Source: Desulfobotulus pelophilus
GTDB lineage: Bacteria; Desulfobacterota; Desulfobacteria; Desulfobacterales; ASO4-4
DNA: 64,000 nucleotides
Assembly: GCF_026155325.1 (NCBI RefSeq)
Contig: NZ_JAPFPW010000005.1
Span: 124,001-188,000, forward strand
Reading direction: 5' to 3'
Positions 2,557 to 63,375 of the stretch are shown here, in pieces. Numbering within the stretch: position 1 is the first letter of the stretch; every line of letters begins with the position of its first letter. Position numbers and translations under genes: made by a program. The notes beneath the pieces are model-generated. The model had not been told where the DNA came from, did not search any database, and saw only the letters and a list, made by a program, of their open reading frames with translations.

Positions 2557-4734
2557 TCAGGGGCGAACGGCCAGTACGTGGCCGCAGCTTTCGGTGGATC
2601 GGCTCTGTCTCTGGAAAACCCGTTCGTTTCGGGCCGTGACCACCCGTACCTCACTGCGATAGCCCCGGCTGAAAAGTTCACTGCTCCAGTACCATCTGTC
2701 CGGATGGGGCAGGGGATAGGAGGGTGCATTTTTGAAGATCTGGGCCAGTTCATTTTCCATGGGCAGGCGCCAGTCCGTGTTTCCGCCGAGGGTGAGATTC
2801 TGTACAAAAGTACGGGCTGAATCATAAGTCAGGCAGCTGCCTGTATGCGCTTCGGAATCGGTTAGCATCCATATTTTCCCTGTGTGGTTATCCCGTACGG
2901 TGCCGTTGTTCTGAAGGGAAAAACGATCCTGAACATGCATCAATAACTGCTGCATCTGACGGACAGCCAGTGCAAGACGTTCTCTGGCTTCTGTGGCCCG
3001 GGCCCTTTCTTCCGCCAGTTGCTGTTGCCGGGCAAGGGCCTGCTGTCTGGCTATTTCGTCCCGGCTTTGCTGTTCCCGAACCTGCTGCTCTTCCAGAATA
3101 CGGCTGCGAAGGCTCTGTGCCCGGTAACGGTAGTGGGGAGGCGGAGATTCTGTCAGATAGCGGTCCAGCAGAGCCATGCGGGCCGAATCTGTCAGGCCGG
3201 AACGGGCCAGCCCTGTTTCCAGTTCTTCCCACATTCTGTCTTCTCTGCTTTTTTGTTCAAGTTCTGTAATGCGTTCACGGATGAAAGCCAGAATGGCCGG
3301 ATTGGTTTCATTCCGGCGGGCCTGTTCATAGTAGCGTAGTTGTTCTTCATGGGTGGGTCGTTCACCCGCACCCGCAATGAGGTCGGCTATGCGCTGCTGA
3401 TGAAGAAGCTTGGAAAGGTGAGCCTGCAGGCTTTCTTTGTCCGGATGATGGGGGTAATTTCTGGAAAATGCATGGATAGCCTGTACGGCATGTGCCCGCT
3501 CTCTGTCGTCTGAGGCCGGAAGGGCCAGTATCTCTTTCAGTTGCCCATCGGCCATGTGCCGGATATGCTTTTCAAGGATCTCTCTTCCGGGGTTATCCGG
3601 AAAACGAGACTGGAAACGCCGCGCTTCTTCCAGCCAGCTTTCCCTGGAGATTTCCGCTGCTGTTCTGTCGGCCATAGACTGGGCCATGGTTTGTATGCGG
3701 TTTTCACGGAGCTCTATGACAAGTTCTCTTTTGGGGCCTTCCTGATGGCGGGCAAGGAATCTGTCATAGAGGCGCAGGGCCATTTCAAAGCCATGGGAAT
3801 CCATACCAAGGTTCTTTTTTTCCAATGCCAGTTCCCGGTAGTCCCGTTCCTGAATGATTTCCCGCAGTCGAGTTCTTGCACGAACAAGGTCTTCACTATG
3901 GGGGCTATGGGGAAAAGCCTCCAGAAAACGGGTGAGGATAACTTCCTGCTGCTCGGGCAGTTCCAGTCGGGTGAGAGATTGCTGAAGGCTCTGATAGGCA
4001 TCATGGTGCCGGTACCTTTCATGGGCAAAGCGGGCCGCCGCTGCACCCACGGTGATCAGGGCAAAAACGAGGATGAGGCTGGCCCATTTTGTTTTCCTGT
4101 CGGAAGAATGGTCTGGCTTCGGGGCTGCCTGTTCGGGTCCCGGAGGCTTTTTTCCGGCAAGCGGTTGAAGAGCTTCCGGTTCAGCATGGCCGTTGATTCC
4201 ACTGATGGGAAGGGGTTGCAGGTTTTCCAGCCCTTCTGGCTGAGTGAAATCCGGCTGGATGGCGTGGCGTACTTCTTCATCGGAAAAGACATAGGCACTC
4301 AGTGCGGCCAGGTCTGGATCCGTTCCGTCTGTATCCACAGCCTTTTTTCCCCCGCTGGATTTATGGGAGGGGGCAGGGGGAGCGACGGGAAGGGGTTGTT
4401 TTTCAGCAGGGCTTTGATTGCGACGTTCATCCCAACGCCTGGCACCTTCCATGAGAAGGTGCATCATGGGAACGCGGATCACCCTTTCTGAGGTGGTACA
4501 CTCCCGCTGCATCTGTATGACAGGGTCCGGAAGGCAGATAATTTCATAGGCCGCTTCCAGACCGGGAAAATCCCCATAGCGTGCGTCGATAACTTCCCCA
4601 TCCCGGATATAGAGCTGTCCGCTGGAATGGTTTCCCTGAATGGTCAGGGTACAGGTGCTTTTTTCCATTTGTACCATCTGGAGAAAAGCGGGAAGACTGA
4701 TTCCCTGAATTTTTCCGCCTGGAGATAAGGCCAT
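2557..4734 (-). CDS. DUF4388 (PATAN)-DUF1566 membrane protein
   Basis: 725 residues. Residues 1-90 form a DUF4388/PATAN-type domain (GKIQGISLPAFLQMVQMEK, then SGQLYIRDGEVIDA), common in deltaproteobacterial signalling proteins. A single membrane helix lies at about 216-234 (WASLILVFALITVGAAAARF). A long charged helical stretch rich in Arg, Glu and Gln follows, with TPR-like periodicity. The last 120 residues carry a DUF1566/Lcl C-terminal module with the typical GKIWMLTDS, DWRLPMENEL and YWSS motifs. DUF1566 modules are usually extracytoplasmic, which suggests a cytoplasmic N-terminus and a periplasmic C-terminus. Located between ftsK and parC in the same direction. The combination is domain-assigned only and no function is known to me. 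Confidence 0.85.
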   Translation of the reverse strand: MALSPGGKIQGISLPAFLQMVQMEKSTCTLTIQGNHSSGQLYIRDGEVIDARYGDFPGLEAAYEIICLPDPVIQMQRECTTSERVIRVPMMHLLMEGARRWDERRNQSPAEKQPLPVAPPAPSHKSSGGKKAVDTDGTDPDLAALSAYVFSDEEVRHAIQPDFTQPEGLENLQPLPISGINGHAEPEALQPLAGKKPPGPEQAAPKPDHSSDRKTKWASLILVFALITVGAAAARFAHERYRHHDAYQSLQQSLTRLELPEQQEVILTRFLEAFPHSPHSEDLVRARTRLREIIQERDYRELALEKKNLGMDSHGFEMALRLYDRFLARHQEGPKRELVIELRENRIQTMAQSMADRTAAEISRESWLEEARRFQSRFPDNPGREILEKHIRHMADGQLKEILALPASDDRERAHAVQAIHAFSRNYPHHPDKESLQAHLSKLLHQQRIADLIAGAGERPTHEEQLRYYEQARRNETNPAILAFIRERITELEQKSREDRMWEELETGLARSGLTDSARMALLDRYLTESPPPHYRYRAQSLRSRILEEQQVREQQSRDEIARQQALARQQQLAEERARATEARERLALAVRQMQQLLMHVQDRFSLQNNGTVRDNHTGKIWMLTDSEAHTGSCLTYDSARTFVQNLTLGGNTDWRLPMENELAQIFKNAPSYPLPHPDRWYWSSELFSRGYRSEVRVVTARNERVFQRQSRSTESCGHVLAVRP

Positions 4735-22184: not shown

Positions 22185-22259
<75 letters not shown>

Positions 22260-22288: not shown

Positions 22289-22363
<75 letters not shown>

Positions 22364-30458: not shown

Positions 30459-30564
30459 TCGTTGCTTTTTACAGTAAGGATTGTCCCTTGCTATTTTTGA
30501 AGTATCTGGGCTAGAAATCTTAGTGTGAAACACAAAGGCAGCCTGTTCTGAGCAGGGTGTCGAT

Positions 30565-30686
30565 CTGCTCCGAGCCCGGAGACCTAAAAGGTGTCGGCCT
30601 GCCTCATGGTACCGGGACGGGGTGCAGCTGGAAACGGCTGTGCCTCCCCAGTGGAAAGGAGTTTTCCCCCAAGGCCGGTCTTTCCT
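30565..30686 (+). promoter_or_regulatory. Moco/Tuco-type riboswitch in the aor leader
   Basis: The leader of the aldehyde ferredoxin oxidoreductase gene contains the conserved core of the Moco RNA motif: CTCCGAGCCCGGAG, then GCCTGCCTCATGGTACCGGG, an 8-bp stem GGTGCAGC / GCTGTGCC around a GGAAAC-containing loop, CCTCCCC and the terminal GTGGAAAGGAG. Known Moco RNAs control molybdenum or tungsten cofactor genes; the variant next to tungsten enzymes (Tuco) lacks one stem (P3). I cannot decide between them by eye. The element ends about 20 bases before the aor start, and the AAGGAGG ribosome site lies just downstream, which fits control of translation or termination. Confidence 0.85.
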
Positions 30687-30706
30687 TATAGAAAAGGAGG
30701 ATCGCC

Positions 30707-32443
30707 ATGTCCGATCGTGTCCTTCGTATTAACATGACTACCGGAACCTCTGTTTTTGAACCTGTGCCTGATGCCTGGGCCGGCCTTGGCGGCCGGGGTC
30801 TGACATCCACCATCATCGCCGGGGAAGTCCCCCCCACCTGTCATGCCCTTGGCAGTAACAACAAGCTTGTATTGGCGCCGGGCCTTCTTTCCGGTACCCG
30901 TGCCGCCAATTCTGGTCGTCTCTCCGCAGGTGCGAAAAGCCCCCTCACCGGTACCATCAAAGAGAGTAATGCCGGTGGTACGGCTGCCCGCATGCTTGCC
31001 CTCATGGGAATCAAGGCGATTATTATCGAAGGCAGGCCGGAAGAAAAAAAAATGTTCGGTATCCATATTGCCAGAGATAAGGTCCGCATTGTGGAAACGG
31101 ATCTCGGAGGTTCCGGTAATTTTGCTGTTGTGGAAAAAATTGTGGCGGAAGAAGGCGGTAAATCAGGAGTCTTGTCCATTGGTCCTGCGGGCGAAATGCT
31201 TATGCCTTCGGCCAATATTTCCGTTAAAGATCCTCAGGGTCGAGTGCGCAGTCTGGGCCGAGGTGGCCTGGGTGCGGTAATGGGTTCTAAAAAAATCAAG
31301 TATATTGCCATTGATCCTGCAGATGCCCCGGGCCTTACCTATGCGGATGAAGCCTCTTTTAAAGAAGCTGCCAGAGTCTTTGCCAAGGCGCTTACAGATC
31401 ATCCCGTGAGTGGAGAGGGCTTGCCAACCTACGGAACCAATGTGCTCCTGAATGTGCTTCACGAAGCAGGTGGTCTGCCTACCCGGAATTTCCGTACGGG
31501 CAGTTTTGACGGCCACGAAGGGATATCCGGTGAAACCATGCATGCCCGCATCGAAGAGAGGGGAGGGGAAGGCCGGGTGCGTCATGCCTGTCATCCCGGC
31601 TGTCTGATCCAGTGCTCTCAGGTGTACCCGGATAAGGACGGCAAGGTTATGGCCAGCGGTTTTGAGTATGAAAGTGTGTGGTCCATGGGGGCCAACTGCG
31701 GTATTGATGATCTGGACGCCCTTGCGGAAGCGGATCATATTCTGGACGATATCGGTGTGGATACGGTGGAGTTCGGTGTGTCCATCGGTGTGGCCATGGA
31801 GGCGGGAATTCTTGCCTTTGGTGATGCGGCGGGGATGCTGCGTATTCTGAAGGAAGATCTTTCCAGAGGAACCCCGCTGGGGCGACTTGTGGGTGCCGGG
31901 GCCGAATGCCTGGGTAAGGTGTATGGTGTGCGTCGGGTTCCCACGGTGAAAGGGCAGGCCATTCCAGCTTATGATCCCAGATCTGTCAAGGGAATGGGGA
32001 TTACTTACGCCACATCCACCATGGGTGCGGATCACACGGCTGGCTACACCGTTACCTCGAATATTCTGAATGTGGGCGGTACGGTGGATCCTCTCAAAAA
32101 AGAGGGACAGGTGGAACTCTCCCGTAACCTTCAGATCGCCACGGCAGCTATCGATTCCACAGGGCTTTGTCTTTTTGTGGCTTTTCCTGTACTGGATATT
32201 CCTGAAGCTTTCAACGCTGTTGTCGACATGCTTAATGCCCGTTTCGGGCTTTCTCTGACGGGTGATGATGTCTCTTCCCTTGGAGCATCCATCTTGAAAA
32301 CAGAGCGGGAATTTAACCGGAAGGCTGGATTCAATGAAGCTGCAGACCGGCTTCCTGAATTTTTCAGCGAAGAAATCCTGCCACCGCATAACACAATCTG
32401 GGACTTCACAGATGCGGAAATGGATGCCTTCTGGGATTTCTGA
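30707..32443 (+). CDS. aor: Aldehyde:ferredoxin oxidoreductase (tungsten)
   Basis: 578 residues. AOR family: N-terminal pterin-binding domain with GLGGRGLTSTI and SGRLSAGAKSPLTG, then the [4Fe-4S] ligands Cys295-x3-Cys299-x3-Cys303 (CHPGCLIQC) and the distal Cys488 (DSTGLC). The enzyme oxidises aldehydes to acids with ferredoxin, using a tungsto-bispterin cofactor. The start has AAGGAGG 6 bases upstream. A riboswitch of the Moco/Tuco class precedes it, and a MoaD-like and a ThiF-like gene follow, with a strong terminator between. Substrate range unknown. Confidence 0.94.
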   Translation: MSDRVLRINMTTGTSVFEPVPDAWAGLGGRGLTSTIIAGEVPPTCHALGSNNKLVLAPGLLSGTRAANSGRLSAGAKSPLTGTIKESNAGGTAARMLALMGIKAIIIEGRPEEKKMFGIHIARDKVRIVETDLGGSGNFAVVEKIVAEEGGKSGVLSIGPAGEMLMPSANISVKDPQGRVRSLGRGGLGAVMGSKKIKYIAIDPADAPGLTYADEASFKEAARVFAKALTDHPVSGEGLPTYGTNVLLNVLHEAGGLPTRNFRTGSFDGHEGISGETMHARIEERGGEGRVRHACHPGCLIQCSQVYPDKDGKVMASGFEYESVWSMGANCGIDDLDALAEADHILDDIGVDTVEFGVSIGVAMEAGILAFGDAAGMLRILKEDLSRGTPLGRLVGAGAECLGKVYGVRRVPTVKGQAIPAYDPRSVKGMGITYATSTMGADHTAGYTVTSNILNVGGTVDPLKKEGQVELSRNLQIATAAIDSTGLCLFVAFPVLDIPEAFNAVVDMLNARFGLSLTGDDVSSLGASILKTEREFNRKAGFNEAADRLPEFFSEEILPPHNTIWDFTDAEMDAFWDF

Positions 32444-32460
32444 TTGATTGGGCCTGAGTC

Positions 32461-32497
32461 CTAAAGAACCTGCCGTTCGGCAGGTTCTTTAGGTTTT
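32461..32497 (+). terminator. Strong hairpin between aor and the MoaD-like gene
   Basis: Perfect 14-bp stem CTAAAGAACCTGCC / GGCAGGTTCTTTAG with a GTTC loop, followed by GTTTTT. It lies just after the aor stop and 13 bases before the next start, so it probably reduces expression of the MoaD/ThiF genes relative to aor, or protects the aor mRNA 3' end. Confidence 0.88.
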
Positions 32498-32509: not shown

Positions 32510-32734
32510 ATGGAAATAGGTGTCCGGCTCTTTGCCGGTTTTCGCAAAGACCGTTTTCGGGAAAGCACCATGGCATGGGAGGCGGGAATGACACCCCGCA
32601 GTATTGCGAAGCACCTGTGGATTCCCGCGGAAGAGGTAGGTATCATTTTTGTGAATGGTCGTCATGCGGATCCCGATGTACCGCTCATGGCCGGGGATAT
32701 TCTCTCCCTTTTTCCCGTGGTGGGGGGAGGCTGA
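32510..32734 (+). CDS. MoaD/ThiS-family sulfur-carrier protein
   Basis: 74 residues, beta-grasp ubiquitin-like fold (EIGVRLFAGFRKD, then GIIFVNGRHADPDVPL and GDILSLFPVVGGG). The C-terminal Gly-Gly is the adenylation and thiocarboxylation site. MoaD-like proteins donate sulfur for the dithiolene of molybdopterin. Ribosome site GGAGGAGG. Immediately followed by a ThiF/MoeB-like activating enzyme with 4 bases between, and preceded by aor, so a dedicated role in tungsten-pterin cofactor synthesis is likely. Confidence 0.9.
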   Translation: MEIGVRLFAGFRKDRFRESTMAWEAGMTPRSIAKHLWIPAEEVGIIFVNGRHADPDVPLMAGDILSLFPVVGGG

Positions 32735-32738
32735 AGCC

Positions 32739-33572
32739 ATGAAAGACTGGATTCTGGGGCAGGCAGAGGAGGGTATTCTTTCCATGGCCAGTCAGCGGAC
32801 CCTTGAAAGGAATGGCGCATTGTCCTCTGCCCGGGCAGAGTCCCTTGTGCTGGAAGCCGGGGTCATGCCGGAGCGTTATGCGCGGAATCCATGGTCTGTA
32901 GAAGAGCAGAACAGAATCCGGAAAAGCTGCTGTGCGATAGTTGGGTGCGGAGCCCTCGGTTCGGCCCTTCTGGAGCAGTTACTTCGTATCGGGGTGGGAA
33001 CCGTGAAGATCATGGATCCGGATGTATTCGGACCTTCCAACCTGAACCGTCAGATTTTGCTGACGGAGGCCTGTCTGGGTGAGCCCAAGGTTGCTGTTGC
33101 AGCAGCAAGGGCCCGCTGTGTGAACCCTGCGGTCAGCCTGATTCCGGTGCAGGCTCGGTTTGCTAAGGAGACGGCAGCCGATTTTCTTGATGGGGTAGAT
33201 CTGGTTCTGGATGCTCTGGATACCGTAGAAGACCGGCTTGTTTTGGAAAAAGAGTGCTGTCGCAAGGGCCTGGTGCTGATTCACGGCGCTGTTTCCGGCT
33301 GGGCTGGACAGGTGGCTGTCTGCCATGCCGGGGAAGGACGACTAGAAAGAATATATGGAAATGTTCAAAAAGGTCATGGGGGCATACCTGCGGGGAATCC
33401 GGTTTTTGGAGTTTTTGCTACAGCAGCGCTTCAGATATCCCTTGCCTGCCGTATGCTTTTATATGGGTCTGAAGAAGTACGGGGGCATTGGTTTCTGGAT
33501 TGCATGGAGCCGGAGTGGGTGTGGATGGATGCAGAGAGCGGGAAGAAGGCGGGTGTTTGTCCTGCGAAATGA
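32739..33572 (+). CDS. ThiF/MoeB-like sulfur-carrier adenylyltransferase
   Basis: 277 residues from ATG 32739, preceded by GGGGGGAGG. The E1-like Rossmann ATP site is VGCGALGSALLEQLLRIGVG, followed by MDPDVFGPSNLNRQ with the conserved Asn/Arg, and VLDALDTVEDRLVL. It should adenylate the Gly-Gly end of the preceding MoaD-like protein. The two CxxC zinc knuckles of classical MoeB/ThiF are not visible; only one Cys (GVCPAK) is near the C-terminus. An N-terminal extension of about 60 residues precedes the fold. Ends just before a bidirectional terminator. Confidence 0.88.
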   Translation: MKDWILGQAEEGILSMASQRTLERNGALSSARAESLVLEAGVMPERYARNPWSVEEQNRIRKSCCAIVGCGALGSALLEQLLRIGVGTVKIMDPDVFGPSNLNRQILLTEACLGEPKVAVAAARARCVNPAVSLIPVQARFAKETAADFLDGVDLVLDALDTVEDRLVLEKECCRKGLVLIHGAVSGWAGQVAVCHAGEGRLERIYGNVQKGHGGIPAGNPVFGVFATAALQISLACRMLLYGSEEVRGHWFLDCMEPEWVWMDAESGKKAGVCPAK

Positions 33573-57506: not shown

Positions 57507-57583
57507 GCGCCCGTAGCTCAGCTGGATAGAGTACCGGACTACGAATCCGTAGGTCGCACGTTCGAATCGTGCCGGGCGCGCCA
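57507..57583 (+). tRNA. tRNA-Arg (anticodon ACG)
   Basis: 77 bases with encoded CCA. Acceptor stem GCGCCCG / CGGGCGC, anticodon loop CTACGAA giving ACG, which becomes ICG after TadA action and reads CGU/CGC/CGA. T loop GTTCGAAT. Confidence 0.97.
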
Positions 57584-57941: not shown

Positions 57942-58382
57942 ATGAGAATAAAAAAAGAAAATATCTTTAGAGCCGCGGTAAGGGATGAGAAGGTTCATAT
58001 TCCCCTTTACACTGAATCTGTCAGTGCTGGCTTTCCCTCTCCAGCCCAGGATTATGTGGAACGCAGCCTGGATCTGAATGAGCTTTGCATCCGCAATGCG
58101 GTTGCTACATTTTTTGTCCGGGTGTCCGGGGATTCCATGGAAGATGGCGGTATCCGCTCCGGTGACATTCTGATCGTGGACAGATCCATAGAGCCAAAAC
58201 ACAAAGATATTGTCATAGCGATTGTGGATGGGGAGTTTACGGTAAAGTGCTTCCATTCAGAGCCTGATGTAAGTCTTGTTCCCCTGAACAGCAGCTATCC
58301 TGTCCTTTATTTTTCTGAAGAATCAGAGCTGGAACTTTTCGGAGTTGTGACCTTTGTTATTCATTCTGTCAGAAACAGATAA
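57942..58382 (+). CDS. umuD: UmuD-type SOS mutagenesis protein
   Basis: 146 residues, a LexA-fold S24 protease. The self-cleavage site is Ala29-Gly30 in ESVSAGFPSP; catalytic Ser65 lies in VSGDSMEDGGI and Lys102 in DGEFTVKCF. After RecA-stimulated cleavage UmuD' binds UmuC to form DNA polymerase V. The ribosome site is weak. The umuC ATG follows after 11 bases. Confidence 0.95.
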   Translation: MRIKKENIFRAAVRDEKVHIPLYTESVSAGFPSPAQDYVERSLDLNELCIRNAVATFFVRVSGDSMEDGGIRSGDILIVDRSIEPKHKDIVIAIVDGEFTVKCFHSEPDVSLVPLNSSYPVLYFSEESELELFGVVTFVIHSVRNR

Positions 58383-58393
58383 GGATACCCGGC

Positions 58394-59683
58394 ATGGCAG
58401 GAGATCAATATTTTGCACTGGTGGACTGCAATAATTTCTATGCCAGTTGTGAGAAACTTTTCAGACCGGATCTGAAAAATACTCCTGTTGTGGTTCTTTC
58501 CAACAACGATGGCTGTGTTGTGGCAAGAAGCCCGGAAGCCAAAGCCTTGGATATTCCCATGGGCGTTCCGGCATTCCAGATACAGCATCTTGTGAAAAAA
58601 CATGGCATAATCGTATTTTCGTCCAATTATGCCCTGTATGCGGATCTGTCACACAGGGTCATGCAGGCCATAGAATCCTGCTGGCCTGATATGGAAATCT
58701 ATTCCATAGACGAGGCCTTCCTTACCTTCAGCTCAAATCCTCTGCCGGGCCTCTCCATGGAGGGGCTGGCAGAGAAGGTTCAGAAACGGGTTTTGATGTG
58801 GACAGGCCTTCGGGTGAGTATCGGTGTGGCCCGCACCAAAACGCTGGCTAAGATTGCCAACTATGCGGCTAAAAAATATCCGGCAACCAAAGGGGTTGTG
58901 GTTCTCGAAGAGCAGGACCGAATAGACAGGCTCCTTGCTCTTGTGTCGGTGGGCGAGGTCTGGGGAGTTGGCCGTCGTACTCAGGAAAAACTGTGCAGAA
59001 TGAATGTCCGGACTGCTTTTGATCTTAAATGTGCCAACATTTTGAATATTAAGAGGTTTTTTAATATAAAAATTGGGCAAACCGTAGAGGAGCTGAATGG
59101 GTCACCCTGTTTCACTCTGGAGCAGACACCTGGCCTGAAAAAGCAGATGATCTGTTCAAGAAGTTTTGGAGAGCGCATTAAGCGGAAAGACGATATGGAA
59201 AAGGCAGTCAGCTCTTTTTGTGTCTATGTTGCAGAAAGACTGAGGTCTGAAAAACTTTTGGCCGGCCGTGTGGATCTTTTTATCCGTACCAGCTGTTTTA
59301 ATAAAGACAAGACCTCATATGCCAATTCCTGCGGTATCAACTTGGATTTTCCTTCAGACGATACTTTTTATCTGGTCGGTTTGACCTGTCGGCTGCTTGA
59401 CTGTATCTGGAAAGAGGGAAAGGCGTACAGTAAGGCAGGGGTTGTGCTGTCAGTATTGACACCCGGAGAAGGAGGCCGACAGATGCAGCTTTTTGAAAGT
59501 AGCCTGATCCGTCCTCAGCATGAGAAAGTCATAGAGATTATGGACAGGATTAACAGGGAAAAAAAAGGAAAGGTCCTGATCGCATCGCAAGGCCTGGGCC
59601 AGAACCCCTGGAAGATGAAGCAGTCCCATGTTTCTCCGAACTATACGTTGGACTGGCGTGCAATTCCCATCATTCGGTGCTGA
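58394..59683 (+). CDS. umuC: DNA polymerase V catalytic subunit UmuC
   Basis: 429 residues, Y-family polymerase. Catalytic motifs: FALVDCNNFYASCEKLF (first Asp), YSIDEAFL (Asp-Glu), a RVSIGVARTKTLAKIANYAAKK fingers segment, and helix-hairpin-helix GEVWGVGRRTQEKL. The C-terminal UmuC domain ends SPNYTLDW, so the protein looks complete. Translesion synthesis under DNA damage. An IS5-like remnant begins within a few bases of its 3' end. Confidence 0.96.
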   Translation: MAGDQYFALVDCNNFYASCEKLFRPDLKNTPVVVLSNNDGCVVARSPEAKALDIPMGVPAFQIQHLVKKHGIIVFSSNYALYADLSHRVMQAIESCWPDMEIYSIDEAFLTFSSNPLPGLSMEGLAEKVQKRVLMWTGLRVSIGVARTKTLAKIANYAAKKYPATKGVVVLEEQDRIDRLLALVSVGEVWGVGRRTQEKLCRMNVRTAFDLKCANILNIKRFFNIKIGQTVEELNGSPCFTLEQTPGLKKQMICSRSFGERIKRKDDMEKAVSSFCVYVAERLRSEKLLAGRVDLFIRTSCFNKDKTSYANSCGINLDFPSDDTFYLVGLTCRLLDCIWKEGKAYSKAGVVLSVLTPGEGGRQMQLFESSLIRPQHEKVIEIMDRINREKKGKVLIASQGLGQNPWKMKQSHVSPNYTLDWRAIPIIRC

Positions 59684-62321: not shown

Positions 62322-62900
62322 TTATGATTTCTGCTGCCTGAGGGACTGAACAAAGGCCTCATGGTGGACTTCCGGACTGAGTACGCTTACCGTCCGGAGG
62401 ATATTGTTCACGGAAACCACCATATTCTGATGGAGCTGGCTCAGGGTGTTTAAGCTTGCCAGCATATCATTCACTTCCCGCACAAGGTGCCTTGCCAGAA
62501 GAATCTGGTCTTCATGGCCATAGTTGATGGCCACGGGAGCGGCAGACCCATAGCGGCCCGTTTTGCGGATGGCGGGGAGAACTTCTGATGCCACCCAGTT
62601 GGTGAACTCTTCAGCGGTGGGTTTGTTGGAGCGGAAGGCCAGTTTGTACAGGGCGGGTTCATTAATAATGATAAGCTGCTGCTCACCGCCGCCCCGGTTG
62701 TCTTCGGAAGAAGGGGTCAGGAAATTCCTGAGTCCTTTCCATTCATCGGGTATAGAGGCAAGCGTTTGTTTCCCCGTCCATGAGATCCCTAGTGCTTCAC
62801 ATACATCTTTAGCGACAAACCAGATCTCTCCGTTTTCAGAAAGGGTTCTGATTGTACAGTTTTGAAAAATAAAATTGGTGGTGGGCAGGTTGTTTTCCAT
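62322..62900 (-). CDS. BRO-family phage antirepressor
   Basis: About 192 residues from ATG 62900 with AAGGAG upstream; ATG 62939 is possible. BRO-N domain: NCTIRTLSENGEIWFVAKDVCEALGIS, LIIINEPALYKLAFRSNKPTAEEF and NWVASEVLPAIRKTGRYG are hallmark. Antirepressors of this kind relieve phage or element repressors. Its C-terminal helical part (about 130-190) is not recognised. Divergent from the Ash-like frame and WYL-type gene, the layout of integrated phages and satellites. Confidence 0.92.
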   Translation of the reverse strand: MENNLPTTNFIFQNCTIRTLSENGEIWFVAKDVCEALGISWTGKQTLASIPDEWKGLRNFLTPSSEDNRGGGEQQLIIINEPALYKLAFRSNKPTAEEFTNWVASEVLPAIRKTGRYGSAAPVAINYGHEDQILLARHLVREVNDMLASLNTLSQLHQNMVVSVNNILRTVSVLSPEVHHEAFVQSLRQQKS

Positions 62901-62961
62901 GACAGGCTCCTTGGCTAAAAAAATGAAGGAATCCGCCATCTCTGAATGCTAAAACAGGGGT

Positions 62962-63036
62962 GGCGGAGCTATATGGGTTAGCATTACCGGGCCAAGGCAA
63001 CCGGTGCTTCCGAAGAAGCCCACATATAGCTCCGCC
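62962..63036 (+). repeat. Long inverted repeat/structured RNA between antirepressor and Ash-like frame
   Basis: Left arm GGCGGAGCTATATGGG (62962-62977) pairs with right arm CCCACATATAGCTCCGCC (63019-63036), about 16 bp with a 2-base difference. Inside is a smaller hairpin ACCGG / CCGGT. Such structures with nearby ash-type genes occur in P4-like satellites, where a CI-like RNA provides immunity. Role here inferred. Confidence 0.7.
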
Positions 63037-63375
63037 ATAAGGGTGTGCGAGGACACAAAAAATGCGCCTGCATCTTTTTATGGTGGCGCTACACGCCTTG
63101 ACTTTCGGGATGCTAAACCCGGCTACGGTTTTTTACCGCAGCATGGAAACCATACCATGCAGGAAGTGAAAGTCAAGGTTGAAAAAAGATTGCGCATGTG
63201 CTTGGATAAAGGCAAATATTTAAAGAAGGGGATTCATTGTGGGCAAAAAAGCAAACCCTGCAGCGGTTTTGATTGCTTTATTTTTTGCGTTTGTTATTTT
63301 TTCGGGAATCATAATGGAAGGGCTGCTCATCATTGTATTGATAGGCGGTGGCGTTGCGGCCTTCTTTTTTTATAA
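63004..63375 (+). CDS. Possible Ash-family phage protein (uncertain)
   Basis: An open frame of up to 123 codons begins inside the inverted repeat. Its residues CEDTKNAPASFYGG and HGNHTMQEVKVKVEK resemble the Ash protein family found next to immunity regions of phage-like elements. The frame runs into the next gene, so its end is probably not natural. A second short frame (63080-63169, MVALHALTFGMLNPATVF) in another phase is also Ash-like, which suggests overlap or frameshift. Low confidence. Confidence 0.35.
   Translation: MLPKKPTYSSAIRVCEDTKNAPASFYGGATRLDFRDAKPGYGFLPQHGNHTMQEVKVKVEKRLRMCLDKGKYLKKGIHCGQKSKPCSGFDCFIFCVCYFFGNHNGRAAHHCIDRRWRCGLLFL

Follow-up and report, generated by a model that had tools for sequence, protein, structure and literature searches.

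A P3-less Moco/Tuco-class riboswitch in the leader of an aldehyde ferredoxin oxidoreductase gene of Desulfobotulus pelophilus

An RNA of the Moco/Tuco riboswitch class that precedes a gene for an aldehyde ferredoxin oxidoreductase (AOR) raises two questions: which of two nearly identical cofactors, that of tungsten or that of molybdenum, it senses, and what it does to the gene behind it. Discrimination between these cofactors by RNA was left open in 2008, with stem P3 as the proposed marker on the basis of 19 organisms (Regulski 2008, PMC2408646, in the part of the paper available to us). The locus described here lies in a window, the whole analysed stretch of 64,000 nucleotides from D. pelophilus, and offers a simple case, with one copy of the RNA and with the named species Desulfobotulus alkaliphilus in the genus. 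Our reading, which we hold at about even chances as a whole, is that a P3-less cis riboswitch of family RF01055 in the AOR leader senses the tungsten pyranopterin cofactor and shuts down translation of the AOR gene once free cofactor abounds; within this reading we infer both the OFF sign and the choice of tungsten over molybdenum in the ligand.

A covariance search of the whole window with cmscan places RF01055, the Moco/Tuco riboswitch, at 30556-30677 on the forward strand with 49.7 bits (E 6.8e-9; E 2.6e-11 for the local stretch alone), above the gathering score of 36 bits that decides membership of the family, and the alignment spans the full model (1-135) and is not truncated. The features of the locus, all on the forward strand, are as follows.

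30556..30677, +, RF01055 aptamer, P3-less (cmscan, 49.7 bits, E 6.8e-9)
30568..30571, +, 5' strand of P1, CUCC, with its partner GGAG at 30658-30661 (cmscan alignment, pairing in alignment A2)
30575..30579, +, 5' strand of P2, CCCGG, with its partner CCGGG at 30612-30616 (alignment, folds)
30617..30619, +, P2-P4 linker ACG, the site of P3 in Moco RNAs (alignment, linker tally)
30620..30645, +, P4 hairpin of 11 pairs with a GAAA tetraloop at 30631-30634 (alignment, folds, covariation)
30653..30661, +, conserved GGAAAGGAG, core and 3' strand of P1 (sequence, folds)
30673..30706, +, predicted leader hairpin pairing the AOR Shine-Dalgarno sequence AAGGAGG at 30694-30700 (fold of -15.2 kcal/mol, z -1.8)
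30707..32443, +, AOR, 578 aa (PF02730, E 3.3e-59; PF01314, E 2.4e-74)
32460..32493, +, intrinsic-terminator-like hairpin 3' of the AOR gene (15 pairs, T tail)
32510..32734, +, ThiS/MoaD-like small protein, 74 aa (PF02597, 29.7 bits, cut-off 22.5)
32655..33572, +, ThiF/MoeB/HesA-like adenylyltransferase, as the listed ORF (PF00899, 150 bits)

The conserved core of the family is present in the alignments (CUCCGA, P2 with CCUAA/AUGG, P4 with a GNRA loop, CCUCCC and GGAAAGG(A)G); CTCCGAGCC starts at 30568, the CATGGTACCGGG arm ends at 30616 and the P4 arm is located around GGTGCAGC. The model positions of stem P3 are deleted in the alignment, and P3 is thus absent. In alignment A2, which comprises 57 P3-less RNAs with the window RNA included, one sequence or more has both partners changed at 16 of the 24 predicted pairs, and columns 14-17 (P1) are paired in at least 55 of the 57 rows. 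As the aptamer folds just mildly better than its shuffles (z -2.0, with 8/200 equally good), support comes from the covariance-model score and from conservation and not from folding energy. The window RNA is a genuine member of an already known riboswitch class in its P3-less form. An earlier note, made from the sequence alone, had named the Moco/Tuco class here and proposed a covariance search and a check for P3; the significant RF01055 match and the presence of the motifs that it quoted bear out the class, and the second check gave the absence of P3 described above. Its span of 30565-30706 opens about 9 nt late and extends right up to the AOR start codon.

The aptamer lies 5' of a gene of molybdenum or tungsten cofactor synthesis, transport or use, the context set for RF01055, since the ATG of the AOR gene at 30707 follows its end by 29 nt and the product carries the domains AFOR_N (PF02730, 200 bits) and AFOR_C (PF01314, 251 bits). 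The placement directly before an AOR gene was likewise correctly called in the earlier note. The AOR family is known as one of tungsten enzymes. Upstream of the aptamer are genes of the Exo_endo_phos and nitronate-monooxygenase families. Downstream, the strong terminator-like hairpin at 32460-32493 (+) splits the AOR gene from the ThiS/MoaD-like gene in what otherwise looks like an operon, and the true start of the ThiF/MoeB/HesA-like frame is probably further in than listed.

The RNA is the single RF01055 match in its own 3.66-Mb assembly (97.7% complete). Across 58 genomes (its own, two others of the genus and 55 more) the family was found in five at E<=0.001 and in four above the cut-off, namely all three members of the genus and G048. 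The aptamer precedes an AOR gene in both other genus genomes; the AOR of D. alkaliphilus, with the RNA upstream there too, is 88% identical to that of the window in a protein search. The G048 RNA is long, with a P3-like hairpin apparent by eye, and lies upstream of an aldehyde dehydrogenase gene. Fourteen AOR relatives were found, 13 of them with at least 300 nt upstream (L153, with 14 nt, was excluded), and four of the 13 have the RNA (L148, L149, L150 and L154).

Because it belongs to RF01055, lacks P3 and has an AOR gene downstream, the window RNA is Tuco-type by the published rule (PMC2408646). In the part of that paper available to us, 58 of 176 RNAs lack P3, tungsten-metabolism genes occur in 17 of the 19 organisms that have such RNAs, and AOR is named solely in the reference list. 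We asked how far the rule holds in the phylum by searching 395 genomes of Desulfobacterota, of which 79 match RF01055 and 76 do so above the cut-off. Among the matches listed, 142 over-cut-off RNAs were read, a lower bound given that 7-8 candidates were scored per genome. P3, assigned by script in 128 RNAs and by eye in 14, was seen in 0/142, those before modA and molybdenum-hydroxylase genes included; flags for P3 that a later parser set on L030, L058 and L136 were rejected as misplaced P2 arms. The downstream genes of these RNAs were assigned by longest ORF and sequence clustering; for most clusters the label comes from a family search with a single representative, and for the porin cluster from five (Porin_O_P, PF07396). 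They are listed here with the number of RNAs that have an A as the last base before P4; tandem aptamers share genes, hence the fewer porin, ModA and XDH genes than RNAs.

MoaA: 25 RNAs, A before P4 in 24/25
Porin_O_P porins: 24 RNAs, 17 genes, A in 9/24
TupA: 15 RNAs, A in 7/15
MoeA: 11 RNAs, A in 11/11
AOR: 11 RNAs, A in 0/11
ModA: 10 RNAs, 9 genes, A in 9/10
ABC transporter parts: 8 RNAs, A in 2/8
CoxM: 6 RNAs, and XDH: 3 RNAs, 2 genes; A in 9/9 for CoxM/XDH together
NiFe hydrogenase small subunit: 5 RNAs, A in 5/5
TupA-like (unchecked label): 4 RNAs, A in 1/4
Aldehyde dehydrogenase: 3 RNAs, A in 3/3
Formate-dehydrogenase-like: 3 RNAs, A in 2/3
Other or none: 14 RNAs, A in 6/14

Since P3-less RNAs of the Desulfobacterota precede molybdenum genes as well, P3 is uninformative for tungsten versus molybdenum in this phylum, and we rejected it as a specificity test there, absent as it is from 142/142 listed RNAs. 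In the Chloroflexota, seven of the 44 RNAs read have a P3 hairpin with 5-6 base pairs; all seven (L309, L311, L312, L317, L323, L324 and L327; 132-142 nt) precede TupA-like genes, contrary to a rule by which P3 means molybdenum. On the sequences compared, metal specificity cannot be read from P3 alone. A literature search of open-licence PMC papers found no paper on the linker or on a later test of P3.

Porins stand behind a good number of the RNAs tabulated above (among them L121:489-1895, L061:629-2077, L065:1049-2302, L113:1183-2430 and L139:1197-2438), and some of these genes have tandem aptamers. The linkage suggests that these porins may serve the uptake of molybdate or tungstate; the available parts of PMC2700814 and PMC2996986 make no mention of an association of RF01055 with porins.

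The metal is better approached through the genome, which carries four AOR genes. Its TupA-type gene matches NF041772 with 246 bits, below the family's own cut-off of 400 and as the sole family match for that gene, and its TupB-type gene matches NF041773 with 206 bits (cut-off 320) as the second-best family; the two adjoin an ABC ATPase at G000:C4 (L303). The tungstate-transport genes by which the Tuco subtype is recognised are therefore represented by TupA/TupB-type genes with sub-cut-off scores. ModA had no match in the genome in a search that matches 11 of 14 control genomes, nine of them above the cut-off. Against tungsten, or neutral, are a single enzyme of xanthine-dehydrogenase type, and so of molybdenum-hydroxylase type, and two PF00384 oxidoreductases; with one RF01055 match in the whole assembly, no such RNA stands at the genome's own tupA. 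The proposal in the earlier note of a tungsten-cofactor variant thus stands as to the P3-less form and the link to AOR, but not as to P3 as evidence for tungsten, and its stronger support is the genome with TupA/TupB-type genes and no ModA, in which an XDH-type enzyme is encoded too. On balance, we consider that this gene content makes tungsten the likely, though not proven, metal sensed in preference to molybdenum.

An RNA of the same class whose ligand is Moco, or which takes both cofactors without discrimination, seems to us possible but doubtful. In its favour are the genome's own XDH-type enzyme and the P3-less RNAs found elsewhere in the Desulfobacterota in front of ModA genes (10 RNAs at 9 genes) and of genes of CoxM/XDH type (9 RNAs at 8 genes). 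Direct binding, moreover, is not shown in the available part of PMC2408646, whose authors state that Moco was too unstable for it to be tested. Against it weigh the lack of a ModA match, the Tup-type tungstate transport genes, the AOR gene directly downstream and the lack of an A before P4, which the window RNA has in common with 10/10 other AOR-linked RNAs of the Desulfobacterota.

This last point leads to the segment between P2 and P4, where the window RNA is unusual. The base of its P2 is G.A (G30574, A30617) where relatives have a pair, and its linker reads ACG, or just CG when the G.A is taken as a pair, an unusually short 2-3 nt against 4 or 5 nt in 131 of the 142 listed phylum RNAs. The 11 AOR-linked RNAs of the Desulfobacterota fall into six families, and 10 of them have a 4-nt linker, the window RNA being the exception. 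The base immediately 5' of P4 is scored independently of where P2 is placed. In three genomes, G160, G325 and G383, the AOR-linked RNA is the sole one without A (1/4, 1/6 and 1/5, respectively), while the other AOR-bearing genomes of the set provide no test, as every RNA read there is without A. The probability of the pattern by chance is 0.008 when stratified by genome and 0.0016 by family; an unstratified Fisher test, which ignores relatedness, gives p 1.2e-5.

The rule, derived in the Desulfobacterota, was set as a prediction ahead of the searches in the Bacillota and Chloroflexota. In the Bacillota, four of six AOR-linked RNAs are without A: both AOR-labelled RNAs in the phylum set (L204 and L219, the label of L204 being weak, with E 1e-19 and an ORF that starts 556 nt after the GGAAAGG motif) and two of four from the AOR search (L280 and L286 conform; L271 and L273 do not). 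In the Chloroflexota the count is 0/3 (L336, a distant AOR relative, L346 and L347). With 4/6 and 0/3 the rule is not general; we rejected it as a general mark of tungsten and keep it only as a lineage-limited correlation. Four of the failures (L271, L273, L346 and L347, but not L336) combine a short P2 with a loop of the GNAA type.

These four RNAs and L137 make up a compact RF01055 subtype of about 110 nt, with GCAAAGG in place of GGAAAGG and CCUGCC or CCCGCC in place of CCUCCC (L271 at 3357-3466 on the reverse strand, L273 at 1203-1313 on the forward strand); four of its five members precede AOR genes, in the Bacillota and Chloroflexota.

That P3-less RNAs are divided into tungsten and molybdenum forms by the P2-P4 linker, with loss of the A before P4 marking tungsten and the Desulfobotulus RNA as an extreme, strikes us as improbable from these comparisons; such a rule would at best be lineage-limited, TupA-linked RNAs being mixed. 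For the question of metal specificity, G160, G325, G383 and other genomes in which AOR-linked RNAs occur beside molybdo-gene-linked ones offer themselves as test cases.

How the RNA might act on the AOR gene is suggested by the leader. No terminator-like site was found on the forward strand between the aptamer and the AOR start codon in the list of such sites, which points to translational control. In the predicted fold a leader hairpin pairs the Shine-Dalgarno sequence AAGGAGG with UCUUUCCUU (-15.2 kcal/mol, z -1.8), on an anti-Shine-Dalgarno strand that includes CUUUCC at 30680-30685; in D. alkaliphilus, whose leader has an indel and substitutions relative to this one, the Shine-Dalgarno sequence is predicted to be paired in the same way (-15.6 kcal/mol, z -2.1). 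The conserved GGAAAGGAG itself resembles a Shine-Dalgarno sequence and can pair with the same strand. We propose that, with ligand bound, P1 and the GGAAAGGAG core would be locked in the aptamer, leaving the anti-Shine-Dalgarno strand to pair the real Shine-Dalgarno sequence and turn AOR translation off. In the ligand-free RNA, GGAAAGGAG may act as a decoy for that strand, GGAAAG pairing with CUUUCC and loosening the hairpin. The Shine-Dalgarno sequence has a computed accessibility of 0.04 in the free RNA; forcing the aptamer gives 0.02, and forcing the decoy pairing raises it only to 0.27. Low with or without the aptamer, these values do not prove the switch. An anti-P1 hairpin, GAGCAG/CUGCUC, seen in free folds at 30550-30570, was set aside; in the leader of D. 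alkaliphilus no counterpart is apparent by eye.

The opposite sign, with cofactor binding exposing the AOR Shine-Dalgarno sequence so that enzyme is made only when cofactor is available, we judge unlikely. It would suit AOR as a user of the cofactor, and the 5' CUCC of P1 could otherwise pair with GGAG of the real Shine-Dalgarno sequence; when the aptamer is forced, however, the best fold retains the leader hairpin (Shine-Dalgarno sequence 0.02 unpaired), and the E. coli relative, the Moco RNA, is an OFF switch in the available part of PMC2408646. Decay to a non-functional aptamer is very improbable, for despite a low score (49.7 bits, 131st among the 142 listed over-cut-off RNAs of the phylum), the G.A at the base of P2 and the linker shortened to 2-3 nt, the core motifs, P1, P4 and the tetraloop are intact and the aptamer is kept with a similar leader in 3/3 genus genomes.

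The proposed tungsten-responsive OFF switch can be set beside the RNAs described in the available part of PMC2408646. With the E. coli moaA element it has in common the covariance family, P1, P2, P4 with its GAAA loop and GGAAAGGAG, and in both cases control is proposed to work through ribosome access. In contrast to that element it is without P3, precedes an AOR gene and not moaABCDE, and has its Shine-Dalgarno sequence about 35 nt beyond P1 in a hairpin of its own and not inside P1. It resembles the P3-less Tuco RNAs in the absence of P3, in a gene of a tungsten-enzyme family and in tungstate-transport-type genes in the genome, and differs from them in the 2-3-nt linker and the G.A at the base of P2, where 131 of the 142 listed P3-less RNAs have 4 or 5 nt.

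Several other elements were seen in the window. Two tRNA genes on the forward strand (22185-22256 and 22289-22360) have equal scores and the same displayed sequence and lie about 100 nt apart. A pair encoding a UmuD-like peptidase S24 and a UmuC-type polymerase (57942-59683, +) follows a tRNA gene at 57507 by 0.4 kb. On the reverse strand, a C4 antisense RNA (RF01695, 71 bits, 62956-63042) adjoins a BRO-N anti-repressor gene (62322-62939), and the two probably form a phage-type immunity locus at the edge of a prophage.
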